Positions 5,543-18,832 of a stretch of 32,500 nucleotides of DNA are shown here, piece after piece. Each line of letters starts with the position of its first letter. Position 1 is the first letter of the stretch. The translations under genes and the position numbers were made by a program. The notes under the pieces are model-generated. The model did no database searches. It worked only from the letters and a program-made list of their open reading frames with translations, and was not told the DNA's origin. This DNA comes from an uncultured Pelagibacteraceae bacterium (GTDB taxonomy: Bacteria > Pseudomonadota > Alphaproteobacteria > Pelagibacterales > Pelagibacteraceae), in contig CACFBW010000010.1 in the NCBI GenBank assembly GCA_902564565.1, positions 1 through 32,500 of the forward strand, written 5' to 3'.

Positions 5543-6487
5543 ATGAAAATTTTAATCACTGGAAGTTGTGGGTTTATTGGATTCAACCTATCTTTATTTT
5601 TATTAAGAAAAGGATATAAAATATATGGAATTGATAACATAAATAATTACTATGACGTAAAAATTAAATACAAAAGACTTAAAATTCTTAAAAAATTTAA
5701 ATTATTCAAATTTTATAAATTTAACTTAGAAGATGAAAAAAAATTAATAAAAATTTTTAAAAATAAATTTGACGCCGTTATTCATTTGGCAGCTCAAGCC
5801 GGTGTAAGGTATTCTATAAGTAATCCAAAAAAATATATCCAAAGTAATGTATTAGGTTTTTTTAATATATTAAATGCATGCAGATTAAAAAATGTAAAAA
5901 AAATTTTATACGCATCATCAAGTTCAGTTTATGGAGATAAAAAAAAATTTCCATTAAAAGAAACTGATATAATAAATCCAAAAAATCTTTACGGTCTTAC
6001 AAAAAAGAACAACGAAGAAATGGCGGAAATATTTAAAAATTTTTATAATTTAAATTTAATTGGATTAAGATTTTTTACAGTTTATGGAGAGTATGGAAGA
6101 CCAGATATGTTTATGATGAAGTATTTAAATTCAAAGAAATTTTTTGATCTATACAATTATGGAAATCATTATAGAGACTTTACATACATAAAAGATGTGA
6201 ATGAAATTATATTAAAATTATTAAATAAAAGAAATCGCGGTCACTTAATTCTAAATATTTGTAGCAACAAAACAATTAAAATCACAAAAATTATATATGA
6301 GATAAACAAGTATGTGAATAAAAAAAATTTACATATTAATAAAATAAACCTTCAAAAAGCTGACGTTGTAAAGACTCATGGTCAAAATAAAAAAGTAAAA
6401 GAATTAACTAATTTTAAAAATTTTACCTCTATTAAGTCAGGAATTAAATTTTTAACAGATTGGTACAAAGAAGATATGAAAAATTAA
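5543..6487 (+). CDS. UDP-glucuronate 4-epimerase-like SDR enzyme
   Basis: This 314-residue extended SDR shows GSCGFIG (7-13) for NAD binding, then D31 with the NINNYYDV stretch typical of UDP-glucuronate 4-epimerases (CapI/LspL type). SSSS sits at 125-128 and the catalytic Y150-G-L-T-K154 follows. RFFTVYGEYGRPDM (176-189) is also characteristic of that subgroup, and YRDFTYIKDV (210-219) contacts the nucleotide. The likely reaction is UDP-GlcA to UDP-GalA in the cytoplasm; the identity of the uronic acid is an inference from motif similarity. It is slightly shorter than the usual roughly 335 residues. It is a single plus-strand gene between two minus operons, with a duplicated TATAAT element upstream and a four-base convergent overlap with the next gene. 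No clear Shine-Dalgarno is seen. Confidence 0.85.
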   Translation: MKILITGSCGFIGFNLSLFLLRKGYKIYGIDNINNYYDVKIKYKRLKILKKFKLFKFYKFNLEDEKKLIKIFKNKFDAVIHLAAQAGVRYSISNPKKYIQSNVLGFFNILNACRLKNVKKILYASSSSVYGDKKKFPLKETDIINPKNLYGLTKKNNEEMAEIFKNFYNLNLIGLRFFTVYGEYGRPDMFMMKYLNSKKFFDLYNYGNHYRDFTYIKDVNEIILKLLNKRNRGHLILNICSNKTIKITKIIYEINKYVNKKNLHINKINLQKADVVKTHGQNKKVKELTNFKNFTSIKSGIKFLTDWYKEDMKN

Positions 6488-7575
6488 AGACTATTAAAAA
6501 TTTTTTCATATATTTTTGCACTTCTTTTTTTTTCAAATTTAAAAAGGTGCCTCTTAGACATTGATGCTTTTTTTCTTAATCTTGAAGGATTATTCAAAAA
6601 TTTATTTATTTTTAAAACTAAGCTTTGTGGTTTATTTATATCAAACAAATCTCCATAACATCCATTTTTTAAAATTTCATAAATTCCACCATTGCTTTTT
6701 GAACAAATTACTGGAACCGATTGACTCAGTGCCTCAACTACAACATTGGGAAAACCTTCAAAAAAAGACGTATTTATGAGCAAATCACTTTTTTTTAAAT
6801 AAGGAAAAATATCCTCTTTAAATCCTAATAATTTAATTTTATTTTTCAACCCGTAATTTTTAACTTTAGTCTCAATTTTTTTTTTCAAAGGTCCATCTCC
6901 AATAATATTTAAATTATATTTTCTTTTGTCAATGCCTTGAAACGCATCTATTAATATTTCTAACCCTTTCTCCTCAGATAGTCTGCCGATCCAAATAATA
7001 TTTTTAGGAATTCTATCTTTATATTTTTTTTTTTTAAATTTACTGAATGAACCCGGGTATACAAATATTGATTTAGATCTTGAATATAAACTTACTTTTT
7101 TTGCAACTCTCTTTGAATTTGCGATTATTAAATCTGCTTTTGTATAAACAAGTTTTATTAAAAATTTTATTATACTTTTTTTAAAAAAATCTATTAAACC
7201 AAAATAAATAAATAGTTCGCTTAAAGTTGTTCTTTCAGTAAATATAAACTTAATATTGTCTTGCTTTTTTTGGAATAATCCAATTAATACATTCGCATGA
7301 AATAAATTTGATATAAATATTGTTTTATATTTACTTTTAGCTATTTGACTAATAATTCTAGCAATTTCACTTTGGGCAAATATTGTTTTACTTTTTTTAA
7401 TTTCATAAACTTTTGCAATATTGCTTAGTTCATATTTATATTCGCATTTATCTAGACATAAAATATTTAAATTAAAATTTTTTTTGTTAAGATTTTTACA
7501 TAAGGAAAAAATGGAATTCCCAGCTCCTCCTTTCACGAATTCAGGTAAAAAAAAAATTAAGTTTTTTTTTTTCAT
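6484..7575 (-). CDS. Glycosyltransferase family 4 (GT-B)
   Basis: The protein is 363 residues. The N-terminal acceptor domain contains KGGAGNS (15-21), the glycine loop seen in many GT4 enzymes. The donor domain shows GRLSEEKG (197-204), IIGDGPL (224-230) and an EGFPNVVVEAL motif (273-283) with the E-x7-E pair. These are all canonical for retaining GT-B transferases of lipopolysaccharide and capsule synthesis. It is the last gene of the 10345-to-6484 operon and overlaps the TviB-like dehydrogenase gene by four bases (ATGA), so it plausibly uses the uronic-acid UDP-sugar made by that neighbour. Its 3' end overlaps the convergent epimerase gene by four bases, leaving no room for an intergenic terminator. 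Confidence 0.9.
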   Translation of the reverse strand: MKKKNLIFFLPEFVKGGAGNSIFSLCKNLNKKNFNLNILCLDKCEYKYELSNIAKVYEIKKSKTIFAQSEIARIISQIAKSKYKTIFISNLFHANVLIGLFQKKQDNIKFIFTERTTLSELFIYFGLIDFFKKSIIKFLIKLVYTKADLIIANSKRVAKKVSLYSRSKSIFVYPGSFSKFKKKKYKDRIPKNIIWIGRLSEEKGLEILIDAFQGIDKRKYNLNIIGDGPLKKKIETKVKNYGLKNKIKLLGFKEDIFPYLKKSDLLINTSFFEGFPNVVVEALSQSVPVICSKSNGGIYEILKNGCYGDLFDINKPQSLVLKINKFLNNPSRLRKKASMSKRHLFKFEKKRSAKIYEKIFNSL

Positions 7576-8780
7576 TTGGAAAAATAATTAAATATATCTA
7601 GATATTTGAACTTATTTTTTTTATAGTCTCTATAAAATTTATTTTTAAAATTTTTATGGTTTACAAGAGGTATAATCAAATCATAATTATTCATTTTTTT
7701 AATTTTATTTAAAGTATTAAATTTTTTCGATTGTAATTTATCTATCTTTGGATCATATGCGTTAATTTTATTCTTAAATTTTTTTTTAAGTTTCAAATAA
7801 AGATTCAATGCAAGAGAATTTCTGAGGTCAGATACTTGCGCTTTATAGCTCACTCCCAAAATTAAAATTTTTTTTAATTTTTCACTCTTTATTTTTTCTA
7901 CAATTTTTTTAAAAATAAAATATTCTAATTCATCATTTACTTTTCTTCCTGAAAGCATAAATTGAGCATTATGACCTTTGGTTTTTGCATAATGATAAAA
8001 ATAATATGGATCGACAGGCAAACAGTGTCCGCCGACTAAACCTGGCGAAAAATCCAAAAAATTCCATTTAGTTTTTGCAAGCTTGATCACCTCTTTAAAA
8101 TTTAAATTTGATTTTTTGCAAACCATAAATATTTCATTCATGAAAGCTATATTTATATCTCTTTGGATATTCTCAATCACTTTTGACATTTCGGCATTTT
8201 CAATTGATTTTGAAAAAACTATATTATTTGAAATTGTATTATAAACTTTTGAAATATTTTTTTTAATAATATTAGGACAACTGTCATAAGAAACGATTTT
8301 TTTAATTTTTTTAATTGTATTAACCTTATCTCCCGGATTAAGCCTTTCAGGGCTATAACCTAAAAAAATTTTTTTGTTTTTAAAATATCTATTTTTAAAA
8401 GATCTTATTAAACCTGGATATACAGTGGACTCAAAAAAAATTATATCTTCATTTTTTATAACTTTATTTAAAATTTTACATGATTTTTCAAGCGGTCTAA
8501 GATCAGGTTTTTTATTAGGATATATTGGCGTAGGGACAGTAATTATATAAAAATTACTGTCATTAAGATCAGAAACCTTGTTTGAAAATTTTGACTTTTT
8601 ATTCAATTTTAAATCATTAAAAGAAAATTCTTTATTAACGTCAAATCTATTTTTTAGTTGATAAATTCTGTCTTTATTAATATCAAAACCTACACAGATG
8701 AACTTTTTTTCCAACCGCAAGTAAGTTGGAAGACCAACATAACCAAGGCCAATTACTGCAATTTTTATTTTTCTATTCAT
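7572..8780 (-). CDS. tviB: Nucleotide-sugar 6-dehydrogenase, UDP-HexNAc dehydrogenase (TviB-like)
   Basis: This 402-residue member of the UDP-glucose/GDP-mannose dehydrogenase family has NAD-binding GLGYVGLP at 11-18. The TVPTP segment is at 81-85, ESTVYPG at 117-123 and GYSPERLNPGD at 141-151, with IENIQRDINIAFMNE in the helix bundle. LVGGHCLPVDPYY holds the catalytic C253. The PGLVGGHC-x-x-VDPYY and SPER-x-NPGD versions match the TviB/WbpO/CapL branch, which oxidises UDP-GlcNAc or UDP-GalNAc to the uronic acid, better than they match Ugd. An amidotransferase (20520-22400) elsewhere in the window could amidate the resulting uronate. It overlaps the downstream GT4 gene by four bases and follows the alcohol dehydrogenase gene by 16 bases. 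The symbol reflects family resemblance, not proven substrate. Confidence 0.9.
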   Translation of the reverse strand: MNRKIKIAVIGLGYVGLPTYLRLEKKFICVGFDINKDRIYQLKNRFDVNKEFSFNDLKLNKKSKFSNKVSDLNDSNFYIITVPTPIYPNKKPDLRPLEKSCKILNKVIKNEDIIFFESTVYPGLIRSFKNRYFKNKKIFLGYSPERLNPGDKVNTIKKIKKIVSYDSCPNIIKKNISKVYNTISNNIVFSKSIENAEMSKVIENIQRDINIAFMNEIFMVCKKSNLNFKEVIKLAKTKWNFLDFSPGLVGGHCLPVDPYYFYHYAKTKGHNAQFMLSGRKVNDELEYFIFKKIVEKIKSEKLKKILILGVSYKAQVSDLRNSLALNLYLKLKKKFKNKINAYDPKIDKLQSKKFNTLNKIKKMNNYDLIIPLVNHKNFKNKFYRDYKKNKFKYLDIFNYFSK

Positions 8781-8796
8781 TTAAATTTAAATTAAA

Positions 8797-9915
8797 TTAA
8801 ATAATTTCCTTAAAAATATTATAAATATCTTTTTTTTCAATTAATACTGGGTTATTCGTAAGTCTTTGAACATTCACATTTTTTAGAATTAAATCTAAGC
8901 TAGATGGTATTTTTTTATTAATAATAGAGAGTTTTTTTTCTAATGACAGGTTTGATCTAATTTGGTCTATTTTAAAAATTAATTCATTAATATTTCTCAC
9001 TTTTAATAATTTAAATAAAAAAGTATATCTTTCATTTAAGTTATACTTTGCAGTTGATTTTTGTAAATTCAAATAATTATGTTGTAAAAAATTATTAAAT
9101 GTTAATGAAACTGCATGACCATGATTAATATTAAAGTGAGATGTAAATGGATAAGATACCGCATGTGGTGCTATTGTTTTTGAAATTGAAATAGCTTTGC
9201 CAGAATAATAAGCTGCAAGAGATAATAAATAAGCTTTTTTGCGTGTTTTATTTTTTAAAAAATTCTCATAATTTTCTGTAAAAATTTCAATTGATTTTTT
9301 TGAATATTCTAAGCTTTTTGCGGTAGATTTTACTGAAAACATTGACTCAACTGATTGAGCAAAACAATCAAAAGCACTAGATGTTATAACATTAATTTTT
9401 TTATTGTTAATTACAAGTTCAGGAAATAACGCCATATTATTTGGCTTAATTAAATTGTGCTCAATGCTATATTTTTTTTTATCTATATACAAAACAGCAT
9501 TAGTTGTTACCTCGGCTCCAGTACCAGCTGTTGTTGGAATAGCTATTATATCACAAAATCTTTTTTTAATTTGATAATTATTTTTAATTATTTTTTGTTT
9601 AATATTATTTACATCAAACATTGTATTGGCAATTTTTGATAAATCTAATACAGCGCCTCCACCAATAGCTAATATTAGATTGGGTTTGTGTTTTTTTATT
9701 TTTTTTATTAAAATCATTAACTCACTTATCTCAGGTAATTTTTTTTTTTTAAGATATAAAATTTTTTTCTTATTAACTGTAAGTTTTTGAATTATTTTAT
9801 TTGCATTAGAACTATAGTAAGATTTATTTCCACCAATAATTAAAACATTTTTATAATTTTCGTTAATAATTATTTTGTTCAAATTTCTAAAATTATAGTT
9901 ATCTACTAACTCCAT
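8797..9915 (-). CDS. Iron-containing alcohol dehydrogenase, probable phosphonoacetaldehyde reductase (PhpC-like)
   Basis: The protein is 372 residues. GGGAVLD (85-91) and PTTAGTGAEVT (127-137) are the nucleotide-binding motifs of group III (Fe-dependent) alcohol dehydrogenases. Metal-ligand candidates are D183, H251 and H265/H267 in the PH-x-x-SYPFTS-x-F-x-x-x-HGH stretch. At the usual DxxxH ligand pair this protein has D183-C-F-A-Q187. The combination of SYPFTS and a glutamine there resembles PhpC-type phosphonoacetaldehyde reductases, from my memory of the family. With PEP mutase and decarboxylase genes nearby, the inferred reaction is phosphonoacetaldehyde to 2-hydroxyethylphosphonate. Start choice: ATG at 9915 is preceded five bases upstream by AAGGA, lying inside the 3' end of the upstream cytidylyltransferase gene (17-base overlap). 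The alternative is a reductase of another aldehyde. Confidence 0.85.
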   Translation of the reverse strand: MELVDNYNFRNLNKIIINENYKNVLIIGGNKSYYSSNANKIIQKLTVNKKKILYLKKKKLPEISELMILIKKIKKHKPNLILAIGGGAVLDLSKIANTMFDVNNIKQKIIKNNYQIKKRFCDIIAIPTTAGTGAEVTTNAVLYIDKKKYSIEHNLIKPNNMALFPELVINNKKINVITSSAFDCFAQSVESMFSVKSTAKSLEYSKKSIEIFTENYENFLKNKTRKKAYLLSLAAYYSGKAISISKTIAPHAVSYPFTSHFNINHGHAVSLTFNNFLQHNYLNLQKSTAKYNLNERYTFLFKLLKVRNINELIFKIDQIRSNLSLEKKLSIINKKIPSSLDLILKNVNVQRLTNNPVLIEKKDIYNIFKEII

Positions 9916-10345
9916 ATTTCCTTTTAATTTTTTTTTTAATCGATGATGACGATATTCTTAAGGTGTATCTAGGTTCAATCAATTTACCATTCCATTTCTT
10001 CAAGATTTTTAGAGCATCTTTTCTAGTTTTTTTTTGTACACCTTTTTTCCAATCGTCACCATGAATTACATAATCAGGTTTTATTTTTTTTAAATTTGGA
10101 ACATAATCTAAAGTATTTTGTTTAACAATTTTATTTACGTATTTAATGCTTTTCAAAACAACTTTCCTTTGATTATAATTTAGTATTGGTGGTCGCTTAT
10201 ATTTTTTAATTGCAAAATCAGTTAATAATCCAACAATTACATTTCCATATTTACTTCCTATTTTTAAAATATTTATATGTCCCGGATGAATTATATCTGC
10301 GCTCATTGCACAATAAACTTTGAGTCTCTTTTTTTTATTTTTCAT
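9899..10345 (-). CDS. Cytidylyltransferase (TagD/GCT-like), stand-alone copy 1
   Basis: This 148-residue nucleotidyltransferase has HPGH (20-23), the HxGH motif that binds the CTP phosphates, HGDDWK (95-100), and ISSSS (131-135) in place of the ISTT signature. Its sequence is strikingly like the N-terminal domain of the PEP-mutase fusion at 13602-14906. Both have GLLTD-x-AI, LNY-x-QRK, DY-x-PNL-x-KIKPDY and HGDDWK, so the two probably share substrate class. The inferred job is to join CMP to a phosphonate (hydroxyethyl- or aminoethylphosphonate), by analogy with glycerol-3-phosphate cytidylyltransferase. Its 3' end overlaps the PhpC-like reductase gene, which supports a hydroxyethylphosphonate substrate. 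It is the first gene of the 10345-to-6484 operon and diverges from the glycerophosphotransferase-like gene. Confidence 0.85.
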   Translation of the reverse strand: MKNKKKRLKVYCAMSADIIHPGHINILKIGSKYGNVIVGLLTDFAIKKYKRPPILNYNQRKVVLKSIKYVNKIVKQNTLDYVPNLKKIKPDYVIHGDDWKKGVQKKTRKDALKILKKWNGKLIEPRYTLRISSSSIKKKIKRKYGVSR

Positions 10346-10451
10346 TTATTAATTATATAATATATATTCATACAAATTTTAATATTAATTAGTTTGCCAA
10401 ATCCAATAATGTTCTTATAAGGTATAAATATTTTAGTGTTTAAAATTTGAT
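10346..10451. promoter_or_regulatory. Divergent promoter region between cytidylyltransferase and phosphotransferase-like gene
   Basis: These 106 bases separate two head-to-head genes, so each must start from here. For the plus gene, TTGCCA (about 10393-10398), a 16-base spacer and TATAAG (about 10415-10420) form a plausible sigma-70 promoter, with a second AT-box TATAAA just downstream. For the minus gene, the alternating TATAATATATATT stretch near 10356-10368 may hold a -10 box. The two genes are the predicted CMP-phosphonate maker and user, and a shared control region would keep them in step. The motifs are weak evidence in such AT-rich DNA. Confidence 0.35.
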
Positions 10452-11504
10452 ATGAAAAAAAAAGTTACATTTTATTATCATGATTTACACCAAAAACATT
10501 TATTTAAGTATGTTTCCAGACATTTAAATAAGAAAAAGTTTAATATTTTTTTTACCAAAAATTTAAGTCAAAAAAGTGATATTGGTTTTTATGCTGAAAA
10601 CTCTAATAACATTAAGAAAATAAAATCAAATATTTCTTTTATTAGTATTGGTGGCATGGATCAAGGAAAATTATTTTGGCCAAATTTGTGGATAAAGGAA
10701 AGTTGGAAAAATTTTGATTTTGGAATATTGCCAGGTACGCATTGGGCAAATATGTGGAAGAAATCTTCATGGTATGACAAATCATTACCAAAAAAAGGAA
10801 TGCTTTTGACCGGCTGGCCAAAAACTGAGTATTTAAATAATATAAAATTAAAAAAAAATAAAAAAAAAACAATTCTATATGCGCCATGTTTTGAGACAGA
10901 CAACAAAGGGATTGAGGTCGTAGATGCAATAAAAAATCTTAATGTTAAATTATTAATAAAACATCTTCCATGGAACCATAAATGGCAAATTGTAAAATTT
11001 AAAGATGTAAGAGATAATATAAAAAAAATGACACACTATGCAAAGCTGAAACTTAACAATAAAGTCGATGTTATAGATTCTAAAGAAAATATCATGAAGT
11101 ATTATAATAAAGCAGATATTTTAATTACTGATGAATCTAGTGTTATGTATGAAGCTTTATTATTTAATTTACCAACACTAAGTTGTGAAGATTGGCCAAT
11201 GAGAACAAACAATACAAATAGACCTCGTGCAATACATAAAGATGAAACGGTATGCAACTATGTGTCAAAAGATAATCTAAGAGAAAAAATACTTGAAATG
11301 TTTAAAAAAAATAAACTATTTAAAAGAAATATTAAAAAAAAAAAAAATTTTCACTTTTCATACATTAATAATAGTGCAAAAAATTTATCTATTTTTTTAG
11401 AAAACTACCTAGAAAAGAAAAAAATTAAATTTCAAATAAAACCTCTATATAAAAAAAATTATATCAAAAGCAGAACTGTGGAAATTTTAAATTTTTTTAA
11501 TTAA
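10452..11504 (+). CDS. CDP-glycerol glycerophosphotransferase-like protein (TagB/TagF family)
   Basis: This 350-residue protein carries the hallmarks of the Glyphos_transf family. They are GWPKTEYL (121-128), ILYAPCFE (141-148), IKHLPW (169-174) with the conserved K-x-H type contact, and the C-terminal nucleotide-binding stretch ADILITDESSVMYEALLF (221-238). The family moves glycerol- or ribitol-phosphate from CDP-alditol to a glycan or lipid at the inner face of the membrane. No glycerol-3-phosphate-specific context is present. Instead the gene sits between two halves of a phosphonate pathway with CMP-transferring enzymes. The inference is transfer of a phosphonate from its CMP ester onto the surface glycan. 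It overlaps the convergent transaminase-like gene by eight bases. The alternative is a true CDP-glycerol enzyme fed by cytidylyltransferase copy 2. Confidence 0.85.
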   Translation: MKKKVTFYYHDLHQKHLFKYVSRHLNKKKFNIFFTKNLSQKSDIGFYAENSNNIKKIKSNISFISIGGMDQGKLFWPNLWIKESWKNFDFGILPGTHWANMWKKSSWYDKSLPKKGMLLTGWPKTEYLNNIKLKKNKKKTILYAPCFETDNKGIEVVDAIKNLNVKLLIKHLPWNHKWQIVKFKDVRDNIKKMTHYAKLKLNNKVDVIDSKENIMKYYNKADILITDESSVMYEALLFNLPTLSCEDWPMRTNNTNRPRAIHKDETVCNYVSKDNLREKILEMFKKNKLFKRNIKKKKNFHFSYINNSAKNLSIFLENYLEKKKIKFQIKPLYKKNYIKSRTVEILNFFN

Positions 11505-12483
11505 CAATTTTAATCGAATCAATTATTTTTCCTGTTGCTTTTCTTTTTAAGTGAACTTCACCTAGGTGACATACCACTGAACCAAATATATCCGCTCTAG
11601 TTTTGTATAGAATCACTTTTTTATTTTTTTTAAAAACTTTCTTATTTATTAAAGTGCATAAATTTGGTTGATTATATTTCTTATAAACTAAATGTTCTTT
11701 CATTTTTTTTAAAAAGTATTTCTTATTTACCATTACTGCATATTTAAATTCATTATAATTTAATAAAACATCGTTTAAAGAACATATTGCATGATAAGGT
11801 CCAGTCATTTTTTTTTCTAGGTGATTAAATATATTTAAATTGAATTGTTTTACTTTATTTTCTGGCATTTTGTTAAATGCAACAAAAGCTCCGCCTGTTA
11901 AACCGAATAAACCTTTACATGAACTATAACTTAAAATATCAGCAAAATAATGGTTTTCCTCCAAACCTATAGATGCTGTTGCATCTAAAGCTAATTTTGC
12001 ATTACATTTTTTTTTTAATATTTTAAATTTTTCTATTGGGATTTTTAATCCTATGCTTGTTTCCACTGGGCAACCAATTACCCAGTCATATTTTTTACTA
12101 ACAAAATTCATTTTTTGATAATTTATATAATCTATTTCTTTTATTTTTTTATAAATTTCTTTATTCACTTTTGACATATAAAATAATCTGTCAGAATAAA
12201 ATCCTGTCTTTATTATAAGAACATTTCCATATAAAAAATTACTAACCATTATTTCTAATGCTAAACTTGCAGAACCTTGCATCCTAGCAAGATATTTATG
12301 TCCACTAATTTTTTTTAATTTATTTAAAACGTTTTTTTCTATTTTTTCATACTCTACATCGCCTCTACCAAAGCACGGTTGAATTGAGGTAATATTCTCT
12401 TTTAAAAGGCTTGCCGGTCCAGGAGTAAAAATCTCTTTTCTACTATTTTGGAATTTTACAAATTTTTCTAAGTATTTTTTCAT
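11497..12483 (-). CDS. Class V PLP aminotransferase, 2-aminoethylphosphonate:pyruvate transaminase-like
   Basis: At 328 residues it is a little shorter than typical PhnW (about 365). TPGPAS (20-25), QGSAS-x-ALE (69-77), CPVETS-x-G (138-145), the PLP-ring aspartate D167 in LDATAS, and the Schiff-base lysine K190 in SSCKGLFG all match class V fold-I enzymes of the PhnW group. In synthesis the reaction would run toward 2-aminoethylphosphonate by aminating phosphonoacetaldehyde. The ATGA overlap with the phosphonopyruvate decarboxylase gene upstream strongly supports that substrate. The amino donor is not known. The presence of a PhpC-like reductase in the neighbouring operon means the aldehyde may have two fates. 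Confidence 0.85.
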   Translation of the reverse strand: MKKYLEKFVKFQNSRKEIFTPGPASLLKENITSIQPCFGRGDVEYEKIEKNVLNKLKKISGHKYLARMQGSASLALEIMVSNFLYGNVLIIKTGFYSDRLFYMSKVNKEIYKKIKEIDYINYQKMNFVSKKYDWVIGCPVETSIGLKIPIEKFKILKKKCNAKLALDATASIGLEENHYFADILSYSSCKGLFGLTGGAFVAFNKMPENKVKQFNLNIFNHLEKKMTGPYHAICSLNDVLLNYNEFKYAVMVNKKYFLKKMKEHLVYKKYNQPNLCTLINKKVFKKNKKVILYKTRADIFGSVVCHLGEVHLKRKATGKIIDSIKIVN

Positions 12484-13598
12484 TTTAAAACTGATTTTAT
12501 AAATTTTTCTTTCAAAAGATTCATTTTTTCTGATGGTCTAGAGATATTTTTTCTGTGACCTTTGTTTAATATAATTTCAATAAAAAAACTATTCTTAGAC
12601 TTAATAGATTTTTTAAGTGCATTAATCACATGTTCATCTTTCCAGCATAATAAATATTTTTTATATCCAAGTTCTTTGGCTAGTCTGTAAAATTTTACAT
12701 GCTTAGCTGAATTGTCATGACCTCCTACCGATTCATGACTATAATTGTTAAAGAGAATATGAACTAAATTATTAAATTTTGAACTAGTTGCTAGTGAACC
12801 CAAATGCATTGTGATTGATCCATCACCATCAAAACAAAATATTTTTTTATTTAACTTGTTTGCCATACCAGTAGCAATGGATATCGCATGTCCCATACCG
12901 CCAACACACATAAAATTATTTATTTTATTATTATTTTTTTTTACTATCTCGTTCAGTTCTCTTGAAAGAATACCAGTTGTTGAAACTACTATAGAATTTT
13001 TTGGAAGTTTACTTACCAATAACTCAAGTATTGGTTCTCTTAAAAATAATTTTTTATTTTTATTTTTATTTTTTATTTTTGTTAATTTTTTAAAAGAATT
13101 TTTTTTAACAAGAAGAGCTACGCTTTTTTGTTTTTTTTTTGCATAATCTTTTAATCTTTTTATTTCAAATTTAAAATTTGAATTTGCATCGATAATTTTA
13201 TACTTAATATTTAGATTGTTGAGAAATTTTTCTGTTACTCTACCCTGAGTTATATGTTGAGGCTCATCAATAAAATTTTTATGTTTTTCGCCTCTCCAGC
13301 CTATTATGAGAAATAAGGGAATTTTATATACATTTTCATCTGCTAAAGATATTAATGGATTTATAGCATTTCCTAATCCTGAATTTTGCATATAAACAAT
13401 TGGTATTTTTTTTGTAGATAAATAATATCCAACACCAATACCAACTGCAGAGCCTTCATTAGCTGCGGTAATATGGTTTTTCTTATACTTTTTCTCAAAA
13501 CTATAACATAGATCTTTAAAAATTGAGTCTGGAACTCCAGAGCAAAAATTTAAATCATTTTTTATTAACTCTTTGATAAAACTTTCAATTTCTATCAT
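12480..13598 (-). CDS. ppd: Phosphonopyruvate decarboxylase
   Basis: This 372-residue thiamine-diphosphate enzyme has the expected order of parts. The PYR domain carries the catalytic glutamate E48 in ANEGSAVG, then QNSGLGNAINPL (71-82) and a RGE/DEPQH-x-x-QGR segment (102-120) typical of phosphonopyruvate decarboxylases. The PP domain has GDGSI (258-262), the metal-binding aspartate, and FNNYSHESVGGH (283-294). It decarboxylates phosphonopyruvate to phosphonoacetaldehyde, the step that pulls the unfavourable PEP mutase equilibrium forward. The two domains are joined by a lysine/asparagine linker (about 173-183) encoded by an ATTTTT microsatellite. It lies three bases after the PEP mutase gene and overlaps the transaminase gene by four bases, so the order is mutase, decarboxylase, transaminase. 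Confidence 0.93.
   Translation of the reverse strand: MIEIESFIKELIKNDLNFCSGVPDSIFKDLCYSFEKKYKKNHITAANEGSAVGIGVGYYLSTKKIPIVYMQNSGLGNAINPLISLADENVYKIPLFLIIGWRGEKHKNFIDEPQHITQGRVTEKFLNNLNIKYKIIDANSNFKFEIKRLKDYAKKKQKSVALLVKKNSFKKLTKIKNKNKNKKLFLREPILELLVSKLPKNSIVVSTTGILSRELNEIVKKNNNKINNFMCVGGMGHAISIATGMANKLNKKIFCFDGDGSITMHLGSLATSSKFNNLVHILFNNYSHESVGGHDNSAKHVKFYRLAKELGYKKYLLCWKDEHVINALKKSIKSKNSFFIEIILNKGHRKNISRPSEKMNLLKEKFIKSVLK
13048..13080. repeat. (ATTTTT)n microsatellite inside ppd
   Basis: About five units of T5-6A run in tandem within the decarboxylase gene. On the coding strand they give alternating Lys-Asn codons in the linker between the two thiamine-enzyme domains. Six-base units keep the frame when whole copies change, while the two seven-base units could shift it. 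The present copy number leaves the gene intact. Confidence 0.6.
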
Positions 13599-13601
13599 TT
13601 A

Positions 13602-14906
13602 TTATTTTGTTCCCGGAATTAACTCTAATATTTCTTTAATACTCAACAATGACCTGTCTATTTCGTGAGATCTTCCATATTTTAAAATATCTAATGCTGT
13701 TTTTCTCATTGCTGGATAAGACGCTCTCAACATGTGGTTAGCATATATTACTATATTAAAACCATGATCAATTAATTGTTTTTCTTTGACAATGTTAAAG
13801 CTTGAAGGAACAGCCACCAAAGGAATTTTTGGATAATTTTTTTTAAACTTTTGGGCAAAAGCAAAAACTTTTTTAGGGTCTTTGTCTTTGCTATGAATCA
13901 TGATTCCATCTGCTCCACTATCAATATAACTATCAGCTCTTCTTAAAGCGTCAGCAATAGGTTTGTTAAGTATTAAGCTTTCTATTCTTGCTATTATCAT
14001 TAAATTAGATGAAGAAGATTTTTTTCCAGCATGAATTTTTTTTGAAAATTCTTTTGTATTTTCTTGTTCTTGTTTTACTTCTGTGCCAAAAAGGGAATTT
14101 TTCTTTAACCCTTTTTTATCTTCCATGATAACAGCTGATATTCCCATTCTGTCAATTGTTTTGATATTTATTTCAAAGTGCTCTGTCTTTCCACCAGTGT
14201 CTATGTCTATGATTAAAGGTTTTGTTGTTACATCAAAAATATCGTTAATATTTGAAAGTCTCTGATTTAAATCTAAAACTTCAATATCTGGTTTTCCTCT
14301 TAATGTAGAATCTGTTAAGGAGCTTGACCAAAAACCGTCGAATTCTATTTTTCTTCCGTACTTATTTTTATAAAAAACCTTTTCAGCGATAATGGCTGAT
14401 AAAGGGCTATGAGTTTCCAGAATTCTACAAACATCATTTGCATCAATCAATCTTTTTAAAAGATTTTGTCTATTTGAAGGAATAAGACCCTGTTCATACA
14501 TTATACTTTTCATATTTGAGCTTGAAATATTTTTAGTATGAGGAATTTCAATTATCTTTGCAGCAATTTTTTTTAAAGTAATAAGTGTTTTTTTTCTAAG
14601 ATCCTTATCTCTTCCTTGTTTCCAGTCATCACCGTGTACCATATAATCAGGTTTTATTTTTAGTAGGTTTGGAGAATAATCCCATTCTTTTTGTTCAACA
14701 ACTTTATCTATTCCATCTATACTTTGTAAAATTTTTTTTCGTTGGTCATAATTTAATAAAGGCAATCTTTTATTTGATGCAATTGCTTTATCCGTCAAAA
14801 GACCAGCTGTTATTGAACCAAATTTCTTAGCATGATTTATTAAATTGATATGTCCATGATGAAGAATATCTATCGATAGCGATATATATACAATTTTTTT
14901 TTTCAT
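13602..14906 (-). CDS. pepM: Bifunctional cytidylyltransferase-phosphoenolpyruvate mutase
   Basis: The protein is 434 residues with two domains. Residues 1 to about 135 are a TagD-like cytidylyltransferase: HHGH at 16-19, HGDDWK at 91-96, ISSS at 127-130. Residues from about 147 form a PEP mutase/isocitrate lyase barrel with GFWSSSLTDS (191-200), the Mg-binding DIDTGG (234-239), and EDKKGLKKNS (262-271). The last is a perfect match to the EDKxGxKxNS signature that separates true PEP mutase from lyases. It isomerises PEP to phosphonopyruvate, forming the C-P bond. The fused head domain presumably activates the end product with CTP. The start overlaps the upstream cytidylyltransferase gene by four bases and ppd follows three bases later. 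Such fusions are known from phosphonate producers. This is the strongest functional call in the window. Confidence 0.96.
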   Translation of the reverse strand: MKKKIVYISLSIDILHHGHINLINHAKKFGSITAGLLTDKAIASNKRLPLLNYDQRKKILQSIDGIDKVVEQKEWDYSPNLLKIKPDYMVHGDDWKQGRDKDLRKKTLITLKKIAAKIIEIPHTKNISSSNMKSIMYEQGLIPSNRQNLLKRLIDANDVCRILETHSPLSAIIAEKVFYKNKYGRKIEFDGFWSSSLTDSTLRGKPDIEVLDLNQRLSNINDIFDVTTKPLIIDIDTGGKTEHFEINIKTIDRMGISAVIMEDKKGLKKNSLFGTEVKQEQENTKEFSKKIHAGKKSSSSNLMIIARIESLILNKPIADALRRADSYIDSGADGIMIHSKDKDPKKVFAFAQKFKKNYPKIPLVAVPSSFNIVKEKQLIDHGFNIVIYANHMLRASYPAMRKTALDILKYGRSHEIDRSLLSIKEILELIPGTK

Positions 14907-15295
14907 GATTTTTTTATTATTATTTTTGATGATTTTTTTCTTAAAATACTAGAACTTATATTCTTAGTTCTTTTAAAATTAATAGTTTTTGTTTTAAATT
15001 TTCTTTTTTTATAATCTCCACCACTTACTAAAATATCTATATTATTTTTATTTAAAAATTTTTGAGTAATTAACCATTTAGATGGAATGATTTTTTTTAC
15101 AGATTTAAATTCTTTTAAAATTTCTTTACGGAATCTATATTGAAGTTCTGGCATATATTTTTTATGTTTTAAAATCTGTCTGTCTGTTGTTAGTGCAACT
15201 ATTACATCTCCATATTTACTTGCTTTTTTAAGCAGTCTAACATGTCCATGATGAATTATTGATGCAGATAGGTCAACCATTACTTTTTTTTTCAT
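14903..15295 (-). CDS. Cytidylyltransferase (TagD/GCT-like), stand-alone copy 2
   Basis: This 130-residue protein is the normal length of glycerol-3-phosphate cytidylyltransferase. HHGH at 15-18 is the CTP-binding HxGH and RTKNISSS at 109-116 corresponds to RTxGISTT. It differs from copy 1 and from the PepM head domain in its middle: SGGDYKKR (91-98) replaces HGDDWK, and the DY-x-PNL-x-KIKPDY block is absent. It therefore probably activates a different alcohol or phosphonate; glycerol-3-phosphate, an amino sugar alcohol and aminoethylphosphonate are all possible. It overlaps the GT4 gene upstream and the pepM fusion downstream by four bases each, so all three are translationally coupled. Confidence 0.8.
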   Translation of the reverse strand: MKKKVMVDLSASIIHHGHVRLLKKASKYGDVIVALTTDRQILKHKKYMPELQYRFRKEILKEFKSVKKIIPSKWLITQKFLNKNNIDILVSGGDYKKRKFKTKTINFKRTKNISSSILRKKSSKIIIKKS

Positions 15296-16503
15296 TTTAA
15301 TTGATTACTTTTTTCTAAAATGTTTTCATAAACTTTTAAATAATCTTTGGCAATTAAATTTATATCAAATTTTTCTTTTACAATTTCTCTACAGTTTGAA
15401 AATGCTAAATCATTATTTTCAATCTGATTAAAAACCCAAAAAATACCATTTGCATAATCATTTATGTCGTTTTTACTTGCAATATAACCATTTTTTTTAT
15501 GAATAATTGTTTCTGATAAACCATTATTCTCAAATATTACAGAAGGGGTATTGCACGCCGAAGCCTCCAATGCAACTAGTCCGAATGCTTCTTCTCTGCT
15601 TGGTACAGCCAAAACATCCGATGCACTATATAATAATCTTCTAGTAATTAAATCTTTTGGGTTATCAAAAAATTTAACATTTTCTTTTTTTAAAGACTTT
15701 GGAAATTGATCTCCTGCTATAATAAGTTCAAAATCAACATCTATTTTTTTTATAGATTCAATTAATAAATCAAAACCTTTTCTTGGATTATTGCCACCCA
15801 TTGAAATAAATAAAATTATTTTTTTATTTTTATTCAAAGAAAGCATTTTCCTTGATAGGATTTTTTCCTCTGGGTACCACTTTTTAAAATCTATAGCACA
15901 AGGAATTTTAGAAATTTGATGATCTTGAAATAAGTTTGAATTAGTTATTTCATTTTTCATCCACTCTGATGTTGGAATAAATCTAATTTTTTTTTTTTTC
16001 AAATCTTCTTTTTTTTTAAGAAAAAATTTATTTAAATTATTAGATATGCCTAAAAAAGAAGATTTATTTATTTGATCATTTTGAGATCGATAATGTTCTA
16101 TAGGAAGAAATACCCACATATCATGAAGCGTCCACACAATAGGAACATCAATTTTTTTTATTTCATTTAGAGACAAAAATTCATTACCAACCCAATGTAA
16201 ATTAATTATATCAGGTTTAATTTTTTTAATTATTTTCTCTATTTCAAATGATTTAAATATGCCCAAAGTAATTGTTTGTTTTTTATGGAAAAAAAATTTA
16301 TTAAAAATTTTTTTTATAATGATTTTAAAAATTGAATGAATTTTAAAAAAAATTGAACTTGGGTTAATTGAATTATTTATATTTCTTTTTTTTGGCAAAT
16401 ATATAAAAGACTCTATTTTTTGATCAGTCAATTTTTCATGTAAATCGATAATAAAATTCGTTGTACCACCATATGCAGTTCCATTTATATGAAGTATTTT
16501 CAT
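15292..16503 (-). CDS. Glycosyltransferase family 4 (GT-B)
   Basis: The protein is 403 residues. The N-terminus MKILHINGTAYGGTTNF carries the acceptor-side glycine loop. NLHWVGNEF and WTLHDMW in the first half are typical of a group of GT4 transferases in O-antigen clusters. The donor domain shows ISMGGNNPRKGFD (about 233-245), an IIAGD segment, and REEAFGLVALEAS with the E-x7-E motif. No signal peptide is present, so it is cytoplasmic or membrane-associated. It sits between the P-loop protein (one-base TAATG overlap) and cytidylyltransferase copy 2 (four-base overlap), inside the phosphonate operon. That position suggests it adds the sugar that carries, or neighbours, the phosphonate. Donor sugar unknown. 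Confidence 0.9.
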   Translation of the reverse strand: MKILHINGTAYGGTTNFIIDLHEKLTDQKIESFIYLPKKRNINNSINPSSIFFKIHSIFKIIIKKIFNKFFFHKKQTITLGIFKSFEIEKIIKKIKPDIINLHWVGNEFLSLNEIKKIDVPIVWTLHDMWVFLPIEHYRSQNDQINKSSFLGISNNLNKFFLKKKEDLKKKKIRFIPTSEWMKNEITNSNLFQDHQISKIPCAIDFKKWYPEEKILSRKMLSLNKNKKIILFISMGGNNPRKGFDLLIESIKKIDVDFELIIAGDQFPKSLKKENVKFFDNPKDLITRRLLYSASDVLAVPSREEAFGLVALEASACNTPSVIFENNGLSETIIHKKNGYIASKNDINDYANGIFWVFNQIENNDLAFSNCREIVKEKFDINLIAKDYLKVYENILEKSNQLK

Positions 16504-17153
16504 TATTTTAAACAGTTAAATAAATTTTTAAGATTTTTGTTTGCATTATTTTTATTATTTTCAAATATTAATAGTTTAGATTTTCTTTCTTTCTTATAAA
16601 AAATTTTAATTCTTTTTAATATTCTAAGTTGTTTCTCATAATTTTTTATATCATTTTTAGAATATTTATATCCTTTTTTCCTTGAGTTGACTCTTGTGAT
16701 ATTTTGTTTTTTAGAAGAATTTAATACTATTTTAATATCTGTTTTTGGTATAATTTTTAAATAATTATTTAAATGCATTCTTTTACATTTTTTTTGAAAA
16801 TAAAAAACAGCTCTATAATTAAATCCCTCACTGTTAATAAATACACATTTTCCTTTACAGTTTTCAAAAAATAACCAAAGTGCAATTTCATTATAAAAAT
16901 AATAAAAATATCTTTTTTTTAGATCTTTTTTTTCTTTAGATGAAATTAATAAAATCATAGTTTTTAGAAAAAAAATTGGATATTTTATTAAAAACAATAA
17001 TATATATAGAATTTTTTTTTTACCCAAAAATCTAAAATCATTAGTAATAATTTTATAATCTTTAAAAAAATTTTTTTTAATAATCATTTTTTGATAATAA
17101 GTTTTCCCAGATCCTGGCATTCCAAGAAACTCGATGCTTATTTTCTTATTCAT
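16503..17153 (-). CDS. P-loop NTPase/kinase-like protein of unknown role
   Basis: The 216-residue protein opens with a clear Walker A motif, GMPGSGKT (11-18), in the style of small-molecule kinases. FINSEGF in the middle may mark a Walker B-like strand. A basic SRKKGYKYSKND stretch in the last third could be a lid. The family is not recognised, and length and layout fit a sugar or nucleotide kinase or a degenerate sulfotransferase-like fold. It is the first gene of the 17153-to-11497 operon, coupled by TAATG to a GT4 gene. That makes it a candidate for phosphorylating an intermediate for cytidylyltransferase copy 2; this is inference only. Confidence 0.7.
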   Translation of the reverse strand: MNKKISIEFLGMPGSGKTYYQKMIIKKNFFKDYKIITNDFRFLGKKKILYILLFLIKYPIFFLKTMILLISSKEKKDLKKRYFYYFYNEIALWLFFENCKGKCVFINSEGFNYRAVFYFQKKCKRMHLNNYLKIIPKTDIKIVLNSSKKQNITRVNSRKKGYKYSKNDIKNYEKQLRILKRIKIFYKKERKSKLLIFENNKNNANKNLKNLFNCLK

Positions 17154-17225: not shown

Positions 17226-17753
17226 ATGAAAAAAAAAAATAAAGCAAAATGCATAATTATTTTTGGCCTTTCTGGCGCTGGAAAATCATCTATTTCAAAA
17301 TTAATTCATAAAAAAGTTGAAAAAAAAATTGGCAAAACAGTTCTTCTAGATGGAAATGAAGTAAGAGAATTATTTAAAGCCATAGGGAAAAAATATGGCT
17401 TTGAAAAAAAAGAAAGAAATAAAACAGCAAACCCAACACTAAAAGTTCTAAGACTATTTCTAGATCAAAATATAAACGTTATTTATAATAATGTTTGTCT
17501 TAATAAAACAGCTTATGAAACTTGGAAAAAAGGGATAAATGAATTGGTTTATGTTTATATAAAAGCAGATGTTAAAAAGATAATAAAATTTGGAAAAAAA
17601 AAAAAAATTTATAATTTAAAAAAAAATGTTGTCGGGCTTCATATAAAACCTGATATACCAAAAAAACCTAATATAATTATTAAAAATAATTTTGACAGAA
17701 GCATAAAAGAAATGTCGAAAGAATTGATAAGAAAATTAAATAGAAAATTATAA
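17226..17753 (+). CDS. Adenylylsulfate kinase-like protein (CysC family)
   Basis: This 175-residue protein has GLSGAGKS at 14-21, the P-loop version typical of APS kinase, and LDGNEVR at 41-47 aligning with the LDGDNxR motif. Near the C-terminus, NVVGLHIKPDIPKKPNIIIKN corresponds to the NVVG-x-x-x-x-x-D-PP-x-P segment of CysC. The usual GFSxxDRxEN block appears only as GFEKKERNKTA, and the protein is a little short, so the acceptor may not be APS. If it is APS kinase it makes PAPS, the donor for the sulfotransferase encoded 60 bases away on the opposite strand. No ATP sulfurylase gene is in the window. It is a single plus-strand gene with a short divergent leader shared with the P-loop gene. 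Confidence 0.75.
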   Translation: MKKKNKAKCIIIFGLSGAGKSSISKLIHKKVEKKIGKTVLLDGNEVRELFKAIGKKYGFEKKERNKTANPTLKVLRLFLDQNINVIYNNVCLNKTAYETWKKGINELVYVYIKADVKKIIKFGKKKKIYNLKKNVVGLHIKPDIPKKPNIIIKNNFDRSIKEMSKELIRKLNRKL

Positions 17754-17815
17754 TATAAATTATTACTTTTTAATTAGTTGGCACAACTTTACAACAAAAT
17801 AAAATCTTTTGATCA

Positions 17816-18832
17816 CTATAGATTGTATAAATTTATTATTTTTTTGTAATATTCGTCTATACCGCTAGAATTTAATTTTTTCTTTAATTCAATTCCTATT
17901 TCTTCATCAATCTTTTTTTTATTAGCATCTACTGAAAATCTAGTTCCTTTAAATTCATGTTCCATATTTTTTAAAGTAAATTCTTTTGAATTTATATTTA
18001 TACATCTTTGAATTTTTTCATCTTCAATAGGCAATTTAAAAAATTTGCAAATATTTTCAAAACTTTTCTTAGAATTATTAATTAAATTTTTATAATCTAA
18101 CACCATATATTCAGAATGATTTTTGTTTTTAAGATATGAAAACCAAAAATCTGTAAATTTTTTATATCTTTTAATAGAATCTTTTATAATCTTTTCATTT
18201 ATACTTTCGGTATTAAAATTTTTATAAAAAGAATTTTTTAATTGATTGTTATAAATTGATAAAATCCAATCATAAGGCTCTCTGATTAAAATTAAAGGAA
18301 AAACATTCTCAATTTGAAATAAATCAATATTTTGAAGTGGGTATCTACTCATTCCAATTCTTTCCTTTAAAAATATTTCTTCGTTATAAAACAACCATTC
18401 TTCTTCTTTTTTAATATCCTCTAAAACTATATTATTAAAAAGATCACCTCTTATAATTGGAGTATCAGAATACATCCATCGATTAGTTGAATAATTATCA
18501 AATTTAGGAATACCATTACCAATTTTATACCTTAACTCAAAATAGGAAGAAAAAAAATTTCTTACATAATTACTCCCTGATGAAGGTGGGGAAAATATAA
18601 AATTCACTTTTAGATTTTGTGATTTAGAAATTTTATAAATATTTTTATTTATATATTTTTTTTTTTTAAAAACCTTCTCAAAAAAAATTAGATTAAAAAT
18701 AATTCGATAATAAAAACTTCCAAATCCACTAGTTTTAAAATAATTTGGGTATAGATTTATACCTAACTTTTTAGAAATTCTTTTAAGTTTCCATCTAATA
18801 TCAAGTTTTAAAAATCGTTTAATATTAATCAT
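17816..18832 (-). CDS. Sulfotransferase (PAPS-dependent)
   Basis: The protein is 338 residues. SPPSSGSNYVRNFF (81-94) corresponds to the 5'-phosphosulfate loop (usually PKSGTTW), and R184-EPYDWIL-S192 is the RxxxxxxxS 3'-phosphate-binding motif. A VLDYKNLINN stretch (about 243-252) matches the region before the PAPS-contacting helix. No membrane segment is evident, so it would act in the cytoplasm on a nucleotide sugar, lipid-linked sugar or small molecule. It overlaps the ABC flippase gene by eight bases and faces the CysC-like gene tail to tail, which supports sulfation of the glycan before export. The acceptor is unknown. Confidence 0.85.
   Translation of the reverse strand: MINIKRFLKLDIRWKLKRISKKLGINLYPNYFKTSGFGSFYYRIIFNLIFFEKVFKKKKYINKNIYKISKSQNLKVNFIFSPPSSGSNYVRNFFSSYFELRYKIGNGIPKFDNYSTNRWMYSDTPIIRGDLFNNIVLEDIKKEEEWLFYNEEIFLKERIGMSRYPLQNIDLFQIENVFPLILIREPYDWILSIYNNQLKNSFYKNFNTESINEKIIKDSIKRYKKFTDFWFSYLKNKNHSEYMVLDYKNLINNSKKSFENICKFFKLPIEDEKIQRCININSKEFTLKNMEHEFKGTRFSVDANKKKIDEEIGIELKKKLNSSGIDEYYKKIINLYNL

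Follow-up and report, generated by a model that had tools for sequence, protein, structure and literature searches.

A SAR11 surface-glycan island probably encodes two-armed, CMP-activated phosphonate tailoring

A two-armed phosphonate gene set in a SAR11 glycan island

The window analysed here, a 32,500-nucleotide stretch of DNA from an uncultured Pelagibacteraceae bacterium (contig CACFBW010000010.1, positions 1 to 32,500), carries a phosphonate gene set at positions 8797-16503, within a surface-glycan island. The window has a G+C content of 22.5% and is part of contig 10 of a 1.06-Mb genome that is 84.8% complete; the closest named relatives of its phosphoenolpyruvate (PEP) mutase, PepM, are uncultured Pelagibacteraceae, which places it in SAR11. 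The set comprises an iron-containing alcohol dehydrogenase (Fe-ADH), a stand-alone cytidylyltransferase (CyT_H), a plus-strand protein of family PF04464, a divergent aminotransferase (AepT), a phosphonopyruvate decarboxylase (Ppd), a CyT-PepM fusion, a small stand-alone cytidylyltransferase (CyT_s) and a family-4 glycosyltransferase. Three cytidylyltransferase (CyT) domains are encoded, one of them fused to PEP mutase as in Fom1. The island probably serves the tailoring of a glycan with phosphonates activated by cytidine monophosphate (CMP), in which a PepM-Ppd trunk would supply one arm leading to CMP-2-aminoethylphosphonate (CMP-AEP) and another leading to CMP-2-hydroxyethylphosphonate (CMP-HEP).

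In the proposed scheme, the PepM domain would convert PEP to phosphonopyruvate and Ppd would convert phosphonopyruvate to phosphonoacetaldehyde. In the amino arm, AepT would turn phosphonoacetaldehyde into AEP, which CyT_s would activate to CMP-AEP; the PF04464 protein most likely transfers AEP from CMP-AEP to a sugar. In the hydroxy arm, Fe-ADH would reduce phosphonoacetaldehyde to HEP, and CyT_H, and possibly the PepM-fused CyT domain, would form CMP-HEP. The decorated glycan would be exported via a PglK-like exporter and the island's ligase. The gene families, the near-exclusive occurrence of the arms in relatives and the pairing of CyTs with arms were computed, and we infer substrates, products, transfer, export and acceptor.

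New here, as a variant of the published SAR11 pepM clusters, are the architecture with two arms, the pairing of CyT_s with AepT and the arm-specific CyTs. An earlier note on this DNA had placed a phosphonate pathway at 9899-14906. Pathway genes do lie there, but Fe-ADH (8797-9915) stands nearly entirely before the start of that interval and CyT_s (14903-15295) runs past its end; the CyT-PepM fusion and the PF04464 gene were absent from that note.

The trunk enzymes

The CyT-PepM fusion (13602-14906, minus strand; 434 residues) scores 379 bits against TIGR02320, over the curated cut-off of 319.6. Its N-terminal CyT domain (PF01467, approximately residues 1-136) carries HHGH, an instance of the HxGH motif, at residue 16, and the PepM domain that follows (PF13714, approximately residues 147-434) carries the PEP mutase motif EDKKGLKKNS at residue 262. 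The arrangement is Fom1-like, and the top PDB matches of the protein are 5unc and 5x3d. Fusions of the CyT-PepM type are common; a published survey found them in 23.6% of PEP mutases (PMC6697681). Ppd (12480-13598, minus strand) is a single chain with a DGDGS motif and 374 bits against TIGR03297 (cut-off 312.5). The presence of both enzymes, reported in the earlier note, is thus borne out, and family scores together with synteny in relatives lend good support to the predicted commitment of PEP via phosphonopyruvate to phosphonoacetaldehyde.

As a separate observation, a PhyH-type dioxygenase (PF05721 in the one member tested; L200:3642-4406 and relatives, with L and G numbers denoting the loci and genomes compared) lies near PepM in nine loci, and none was seen near PepM in the window. 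Phosphonate hydroxylation is a possible role.

Distribution of the arms among relatives

PepM, AepT and Fe-ADH were sought in 399 genomes of the window's own genus, Pelagibacter, which were taken from a larger group; PepM was counted as present at E ≤ 1e-60. Among the 43 genomes with PepM, 13 carry AepT only, 24 Fe-ADH only, two both and four neither. This mutual avoidance of the arms corresponds to a Fisher p of 5e-6, a value that ignores relatedness and comes from a set in which many genomes are incomplete. The AepT match of G329 (E 1e-12) was not counted, and the table excludes G121, G128 and G236, where an arm gene occurs without any PepM match. Which phosphonate each SAR11 lineage makes is hard to read from genomes, and with the split into amino-type, hydroxy-type, two-armed and armless genomes the origin of marine AEP and HEP can be put to the test. 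The earlier note had treated the transaminase-like enzyme and the iron alcohol dehydrogenase as one set. Both are indeed present, as judged from a class-V fold model and from the PF00465 match, but in relatives they form alternative arms that seldom occur together.

The two-armed genomes among the 43 are the window's own and G191 (locus L196); a third two-armed locus, L042, comes from the single-cell genome AG-422-A05. Gene order differs among the three loci, and the Fe-ADH, CyT_H, AepT, CyT_s, PepM and Ppd of L196 and L042 share 53-70% protein identity with those of the window. Such loci are a natural place to ask whether one cell displays two phosphonates. The one-armed island L034 resembles the window in 16 of its 19 frames and has neither Fe-ADH nor CyT_H: one unrelated gene stands between AepT and the sugar dehydrogenase, where the window has the PF04464 gene, CyT_H and Fe-ADH.

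The amino arm and its cytidylyltransferase

AepT (11497-12483, minus strand) is a divergent, short class-V aminotransferase of 328 residues and the predicted maker of AEP. It has no Pfam match at E ≤ 0.001. Its AlphaFold (AF2) model (predicted local distance difference test score, pLDDT, of 91) shows a class-V aminotransferase fold, and in a Foldseek search of the model against the PDB, AEP transaminases (7e7g, 6pd1/6pd2 and 1m32) take ranks 2, 4, 5, 7, 8 and 9. Lys190, Asp167 and Thr142 are invariant in two alignments, one of 17 rows; Lys190 is presumably the lysine that binds pyridoxal phosphate, and the roles of all three residues are assumed. The model suggests that AepT works like an AEP transaminase without being classed as PhnW, an assignment that the curated cut-offs rule out.

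CyT_s (14903-15295, minus strand; PF01467) is a predicted cytidine triphosphate (CTP):aminophosphonate cytidylyltransferase. Together with CyT_H and the fused domain it belongs to PF01467 and not to PF12804, the family of PntC, with Pfam E-values for the three domains (CTP_transf_like) of 8e-15, 1e-14 and 1e-12. The Fom1 CyT domain (5x3d) is the top PDB match of all three (2e-37, 1e-43 for CyT_H, and 8e-13), and CyT_s is equally near a glycerol-3-phosphate cytidylyltransferase (2b7l, 1e-12). The earlier note had called these enzymes TagD-type. They are cytidylyltransferases, but all three fall under the TagD cut-off (52, 67.6 and 53.6 against 165.4 bits, TIGR01518), and their best structural match is Fom1.

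CyT_s and AepT go together. In 111 loci with a called PepM, with arms scored up to six genes from it, both occur in 19, AepT only in two, CyT_s only in two and neither in 88. The AepT-only loci are L043, cut by a contig end, and L207, with a divergent AepT; both CyT_s-only loci are cut by contig ends. This count leaves out the window itself as well as L172, L208, L236 and L237, does not score canonical long transaminases or three CyT-AepT fusions as AepT, and takes its loci outside Pelagibacter from the best 80 of at least 537 matches. Under the six-gene scoring L042 counts as transaminase and L196 as both. The co-occurrence count, the CyT tree and the motif counts also omit L038, L040, L041, L045 and L047 (repeats or near repeats of the G-numbered genomes) and loci without a called PepM of the expected length. 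The three fusions (L062, L067 and L100, all Bacteroidota) join CyT_s and AepT in one protein of 460-461 residues, and their CyT domains fall inside the 26-row CyT_s clade, whose support in the Shimodaira-Hasegawa-like approximate likelihood ratio test (SH-aLRT) is 100. Co-occurrence and fusion together are strong evidence from sequence that CyT_s would act on the product of AepT. The AepT + CyT_s module also occurs in three Methylotenera genomes and one Pseudomonadales genome, and the pair may serve as a marker for amino-type producers that PhnW models miss.

The hydroxy arm and the fused cytidylyltransferase domain

Fe-ADH (8797-9915, minus strand; PF00465, 5e-26) is a predicted phosphonoacetaldehyde reductase whose gene overlaps that of CyT_H by 17 bases. 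Its residues D183, Q187, H251 and H267, which we take to be the metal-ligand positions, are invariant in three Pelagibacter enzymes. In reductase-type Pelagibacter loci, Fe-ADH is placed after PepM-Ppd.

CyT_H (9899-10345, minus strand) is a stand-alone, Fom1-like protein and the predicted CTP:2-hydroxyethylphosphonate cytidylyltransferase. The CyT_H proteins of the window, L196 and L042 group in a single clade (support 96), itself part of a 27-row group (support 83) in which 18 rows are CyT domains of reductase-type Pelagibacter PepMs; CyT_H is 69% and 66% identical to the PepM CyT domains of two reductase-type loci. The combination of reductase and Fom1-like CyT may thus mark HEP-type producers.

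The state of the CyT domain fused to PepM tends to vary with the arm present. Among reductase loci, 61 of 63 have an intact HxGH motif there, against 17 of 36 transaminase loci; eight of ten loci with neither arm and the single locus with both also have it intact (Fisher p = 1e-8, ignoring relatedness like the other Fisher values). The transaminase loci show 19 losses, and a single 17-row clade, mostly of Bacteroidota, accounts for 16 of them (HPGL and variants). In Pelagibacter, L199, L203 and L204 seem to have lost the motif separately, though the HHAH of L199 may still work. The motif is kept in all 36 stand-alone or AepT-fused CyTs of the motif table and in the window's two, and it is intact in every CyT of the window, L196 and L042. 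From these motif patterns, the fused CyT therefore appears to work in the HEP route and not to be needed where a transaminase is present.

Related loci were also seen in IMG/VR (L296-L319 and L324), where 25 of the 32 loci matched by PepM alignment, some of them apparent repeats, encode a whole CyT-PepM. Most of these stand beside a Ppd split in two short genes and a short Fe-ADH-like frame, a HEP-type cassette on predicted viral contigs.

Transfer and glycan context

The plus-strand gene at 10452-11504 encodes a protein similar to cytidine diphosphate (CDP)-glycerol:glycerophosphotransferases (PF04464, 1e-9; 38.3 bits over a cut-off of 22.1), with a partial match that covers 130-290 of 367. 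Members of PF04464 work in CDP-glycerol chemistry, and by analogy the protein is a natural candidate for moving the phosphonyl group from a CMP donor to a sugar. Within eight genes of PepM, the family occurs in ten of 57 loci, all with AepT (eight amino-type and two two-armed), and in none of 25 reductase-only loci; in L042 the gene lies nine genes from PepM. The 57-locus table still holds some repeats (e.g., L040 repeats L195). Amino-type loci without a PF04464 gene must use another transferase.

Neighbouring genes mostly overlap by 1-17 bases or sit at most 16 bases apart. This spacing points to two minus-strand units, one (17153-11497) holding the trunk and the amino arm, the other (10345-6484) the hydroxy arm plus two glycan genes. 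The latter are a nucleotide-sugar dehydrogenase (7572-8780, minus strand; TIGR03026, 322 over 189.8 bits) and a family-4 glycosyltransferase (6484-7575, minus strand; PF00534, 3e-34), the top NCBIfam match of which, NF050063 (PglJ), reaches 120 bits against a cut-off of 500. Within the other unit, a second family-4 glycosyltransferase (15292-16503, minus strand; PF00534, 8e-24) overlaps CyT_s by four bases and borders a small P-loop protein with GMPGSGKT (16503-17153, minus strand), for which neither a Pfam nor an NCBIfam match was found. The P-loop family occurs near PepM in six of 57 loci, three amino-type and three two-armed, and was seen there in AepT-bearing loci only. Promoter-like sites in the window are at shuffle level (97 found, 97.5 expected), and terminator-like sites number four against 2.8 expected.

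The surroundings encode nucleotide-sugar epimerases and a dehydrogenase, glycosyltransferases of families 2 and 4, an O-antigen ligase or polymerase (Wzy_C; 4091-5263, minus strand; PF04932, 1e-13) and a PglK-like ABC exporter of the lipid-linked glycan flippase type (18825-20519, minus strand; PF00005, 1e-30), whose top NCBIfam match, NF050066 (PglK), scores 254.7 bits against a cut-off of 1000. Further island genes encode an asparagine-synthase family protein, a sulfotransferase-like protein and a protein resembling adenylyl-sulfate (APS) kinase. Glycan genes also border L034 and L196. The surface-glycan setting proposed in the earlier note is upheld by these family scores and by synteny in relatives.

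Weighing the alternatives

Several observations weigh against the two-armed scheme. Fe-ADH scores 95.9 bits against TIGR03405, under the PsrA cut-off of 423.7, and has Gln where Cvir-Hbd2 has a conserved His. The single CyT_H clade of the window, L196 and L042 means that the hydroxy pair may have been gained once, with the islands rearranged later, and the 16 clustered losses of HxGH may likewise represent a single event. The reductase loci L213 and L215 have HSAH in the fused CyT. The window's own fused CyT keeps HHGH, which gives three CyTs for two arms, one too many; the 17 transaminase loci counted above keep the HxGH motif as well. Arms that appear to be missing may lie in unsequenced parts of incomplete genomes. 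As for AepT, it falls under the cut-offs of PhnW and AepZ (TIGR03301, 50.6 against 360.8 bits; TIGR02326, 41.7 against 400.8), rank 1 in its fold search is an ancillary domain of Mycoplasma methionyl-tRNA synthetase, and alanine-pyruvate, aspartate and other class-V transaminases score alike there. Most AepT rows have Val or Ile where canonical Bacteroidota AEP transaminases have a C-terminal Arg (NTFRL) that presumably binds substrate; another Arg, upstream of the replaced one, is kept in the rows shown. With the PhnW cut-offs missed widely and this Arg replaced, the substrate of AepT is uncertain. In L033 (genome G019), moreover, AepT adjoins PepM without Ppd, and the sole Ppd match of G019 lies on another contig. 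That Ppd neighbourhood (G019:C2:51650-52723, L208) resembles L226, where PepM adjoins.

These points can be read in other ways. The near-exclusive arms of relatives, the similar island L034 without Fe-ADH and CyT_H, and the place of the 8797-10345 pair in a separate minus-strand unit, with a plus-strand gene between it and the trunk, would fit a single-product pathway, in which one arm works and the other, most likely this pair, is unused or being lost. Such a pathway is decidedly unlikely, given that both arms are open frames, that three loci of differing gene order retain all six genes despite their divergence, and that HxGH is intact in all CyTs of these loci. The very low PhnW scores, the lack of Arg at the canonical place and the adjacency of PepM and AepT without Ppd in L033 raise another reading: AepT might act on a different oxo-phosphonate (e.g., converting phosphonopyruvate to phosphonoalanine) or on a phosphonate sugar, with CyT_s activating the product. 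This is unlikely, since Ppd lies at most three genes from PepM in every compared Pelagibacter locus with PepM and AepT but L033, and G019 has Ppd elsewhere; AEP transaminases also recur among the best fold matches, though other class-V enzymes score alike, and Lys190, Asp167 and Thr142 are kept.

It is highly improbable that the phosphonate is destined for a lipid or a secreted small molecule. Fom1, to which the CyT domains come closest in the PDB, acts in the small-molecule pathway of fosfomycin (PMC6697681), but no family typical of a late fosfomycin step was found among 30 window proteins searched with Pfam and 20 with NCBIfam; the phosphonate genes overlap or interleave with glycosyltransferases, the nucleotide-sugar dehydrogenase, the PglK-like exporter and the O-antigen ligase, and the loci L034 and L196 have glycan genes at their borders. 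Decoration of a glycan, which the earlier note had proposed as a phosphonoglycan, is the best reading, and one that we infer; against it, the phosphonate of Prochlorococcus SB was found in the high-molecular-weight protein fraction and not in polysaccharide (PMC8931226). The authors of that study reconcile this result as glycans on proteins (PMC8931226).

Relation to known systems

The phosphonoglycan idea for SAR11 is already published: pepM of SAR11 and Prochlorococcus lies near glycan genes, in SAR11 within 5 kb of them, phosphonoglycoproteins were proposed, and SAR11 is regarded as potentially one of the main phosphonate producers of the ocean (Acker et al. 2022, PMC8931226). The window resembles these clusters, which occur in a minority of cells, in the proximity of pepM to glycan assembly genes and in the proposed cell-surface phosphonoglycan. 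It differs in that the main text of that paper does not contain the words 'transaminase' or 'nucleotidyl', its covered parts (the supplement being outside them) describe no two arms, and the destination given there is a glycoprotein. The joint presence of pepM, aepY and phpC in Pelagibacterales has also been noted (Lockwood et al., PMC9381506).

For the activation step, the Fom1 CyT makes CMP-HEP and PntC makes CMP-AEP (Rice et al. 2019, PMC6697681). The trunk enzyme shares with Fom1 the CyT N-terminally fused to PepM, and both CyT_H and the fused CyT match 5x3d best; unlike the fosfomycin system, the window encodes CyT_H separately, carries an amino arm as well and has these genes in a glycan island. 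PntC and PntC-AEPT (6pd1/6pd2; PMC6697681) provide CMP-activated AEP for surface tailoring through a nucleotidyltransferase-transaminase fusion comparable to the CyT_s-AepT pair. As PntC belongs to PF12804 (MobA-like) and CyT_s to PF01467, the Bacteroidota CyT_s-AepT fusions look like the PntC-AEPT solution reached with another enzyme family. The Campylobacter jejuni enzymes Cj1415-Cj1418 make CDP-phosphoramidate 3'-phosphate, the likely donor of a capsule group (PMC11800397). This O-methyl phosphoramidate pathway shares with the scheme proposed here a CTP-activated phosphorus group, but its bond is P-N and not C-P, and it has no PepM.

No description of the two-armed architecture, the CyT_s-AepT pair or a CMP-phosphonate kinase was found in the literature titles, abstract openings and passages covered, a set that excludes supplements and most subscription papers. 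A search for phosphoramidate in SAR11 turned up the Campylobacter study alone, by its abstract. For phosphonoglycan combined with cytidylyltransferase, APS kinase or sulfotransferase, the word phosphonoglycan occurred, among the matches listed, in PMC6697681 only.

A kinase and a sulfotransferase-like protein

Next to the phosphonate genes lie an adenylyl-sulfate-kinase-like P-loop kinase (17226-17753, plus strand; PF01583, 2e-13), a candidate 3'-kinase of the CMP-phosphonate, and a sulfotransferase-like protein (17816-18832, minus strand; PF00685, 4e-8), a candidate phosphonyl transferase or a true sulfotransferase. A doubtful proposal, made by analogy with 3'-phosphoadenosine 5'-phosphosulfate (PAPS), is that the kinase would form 3'-phospho-CMP-phosphonate and the sulfotransferase-like protein would move the phosphonyl group to the glycan. 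As part of this scheme, CDP-phosphoramidate cassettes in sister SAR11 genomes would rely on that kinase family too. Cj1415 is presumably the APS-kinase-like enzyme of the Cj1415-Cj1418 set, and by analogy with it the window kinase may phosphorylate a CMP-phosphonate. If true, the kinase reading would add an unrecognised activated-phosphonate donor, and C-P, P-N and S-O surface groups would share one activated-donor chemistry.

The kinase falls under the APS kinase cut-offs (TIGR00455, 51.3 against 138.7 bits; PRK05541, 93.8 against 127). Its family occurs in 22 of 43 PepM genomes against 37 of 356 others (odds ratio 9), an association that could partly come from both being variable glycan-island genes. 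The nine best matches to it in the 399 genomes, its own excluded, are all in PepM genomes, and in a 39-row tree it falls in a 12-row clade (support 96/94) made up solely of kinases of PepM genomes. The clade evidence is weakened by sampling, as PepM loci or genomes supplied 24 of the 39 rows (one of these, G121, without a PepM match), and of the 37 kinase genomes that lack PepM, 15 are represented. In L199, L200, L201 and L203, the kinase comes immediately after CyT_s.

Of 80 genomes examined, six encode the sulfotransferase-like protein: six of 40 among the 59 with the kinase, and none of 40 chosen from the 340 without it. PepM is present in five of these six; the sixth, G208, has the gene beside a phosphoramidate cassette. 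The protein keeps R(E/D)PxDWIxSxY, which we take to bind the 3'-phosphate of the donor, and its first loop reads SSG(S/G)N at a position where sulfotransferases presumably have lysine. A model from three sequences was poor (pLDDT 52), and a viral scan with the alignment of this protein found no relatives.

Quite possibly, the genes at 17226-18832 are an ordinary PAPS sulfation pair that shares the island by chance. Among 40 of the 59 kinase genomes, ATP sulfurylase of the PF01747 type occurs in six and CysD in none; four of the six (G354, G211, G153 and G398) carry PepM. The sulfurylase adjoins the kinase in G164 and lies within about 2 kb of it in G153 and G398, inside the PepM neighbourhood. 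The sulfotransferase-like gene of L197 adjoins a second kinase, outside the PepM clade, and G354 has a relative of that kinase and the sulfurylase on one contig; of its three kinases, one, outside the kinase tree, shares a small contig with a sulfotransferase-like gene. The six sulfurylase genomes and these gene neighbourhoods speak for sulfation and against a CMP-phosphonate kinase. Against sulfation, the sulfurylase counts in the 40 genomes are low, neither type of ATP sulfurylase was found in the window's own, 84.8% complete genome, nine of the ten kinase genomes at least 90% complete have neither type, the best kinase matches are confined to PepM genomes, and the window kinase has no WN[RK]KN, which the two sulfurylase-linked kinases shown carry. 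PRK05541 scores fail to separate sulfurylase-linked from phosphoramidate-linked kinases.

Among the 21 relatives compared, the PepM-clade kinases likewise have no WN[RK]KN motif, and all six sulfurylase- or phosphoramidate-linked kinases shown keep it. Four PepM-lacking Pelagibacter loci (L271, L273, L274 and L277, from G424, G208, G251 and G002) have a Campylobacter-like CDP-phosphoramidate cassette around this kinase family. The cassette includes a glutamine kinase homologue (NF004508, 779 over 501 bits in one member) and a glutamine amidotransferase whose best NCBIfam match, gamma-glutamyl-CDP-amidate hydrolase, scores 114 bits, under the cut-off of 250 (one member); three of the four cassettes have a MobA-like nucleotidyltransferase, a family likewise assigned from one member (homologues were grouped by BLAST clustering). 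These families suggest P-N surface groups in SAR11. Finally, a B12-binding radical SAM protein of 505 residues (L201:4050-5567, the one member tested) stands directly after the kinase in L200, L201 and L203, with relatives in L199 and L053.

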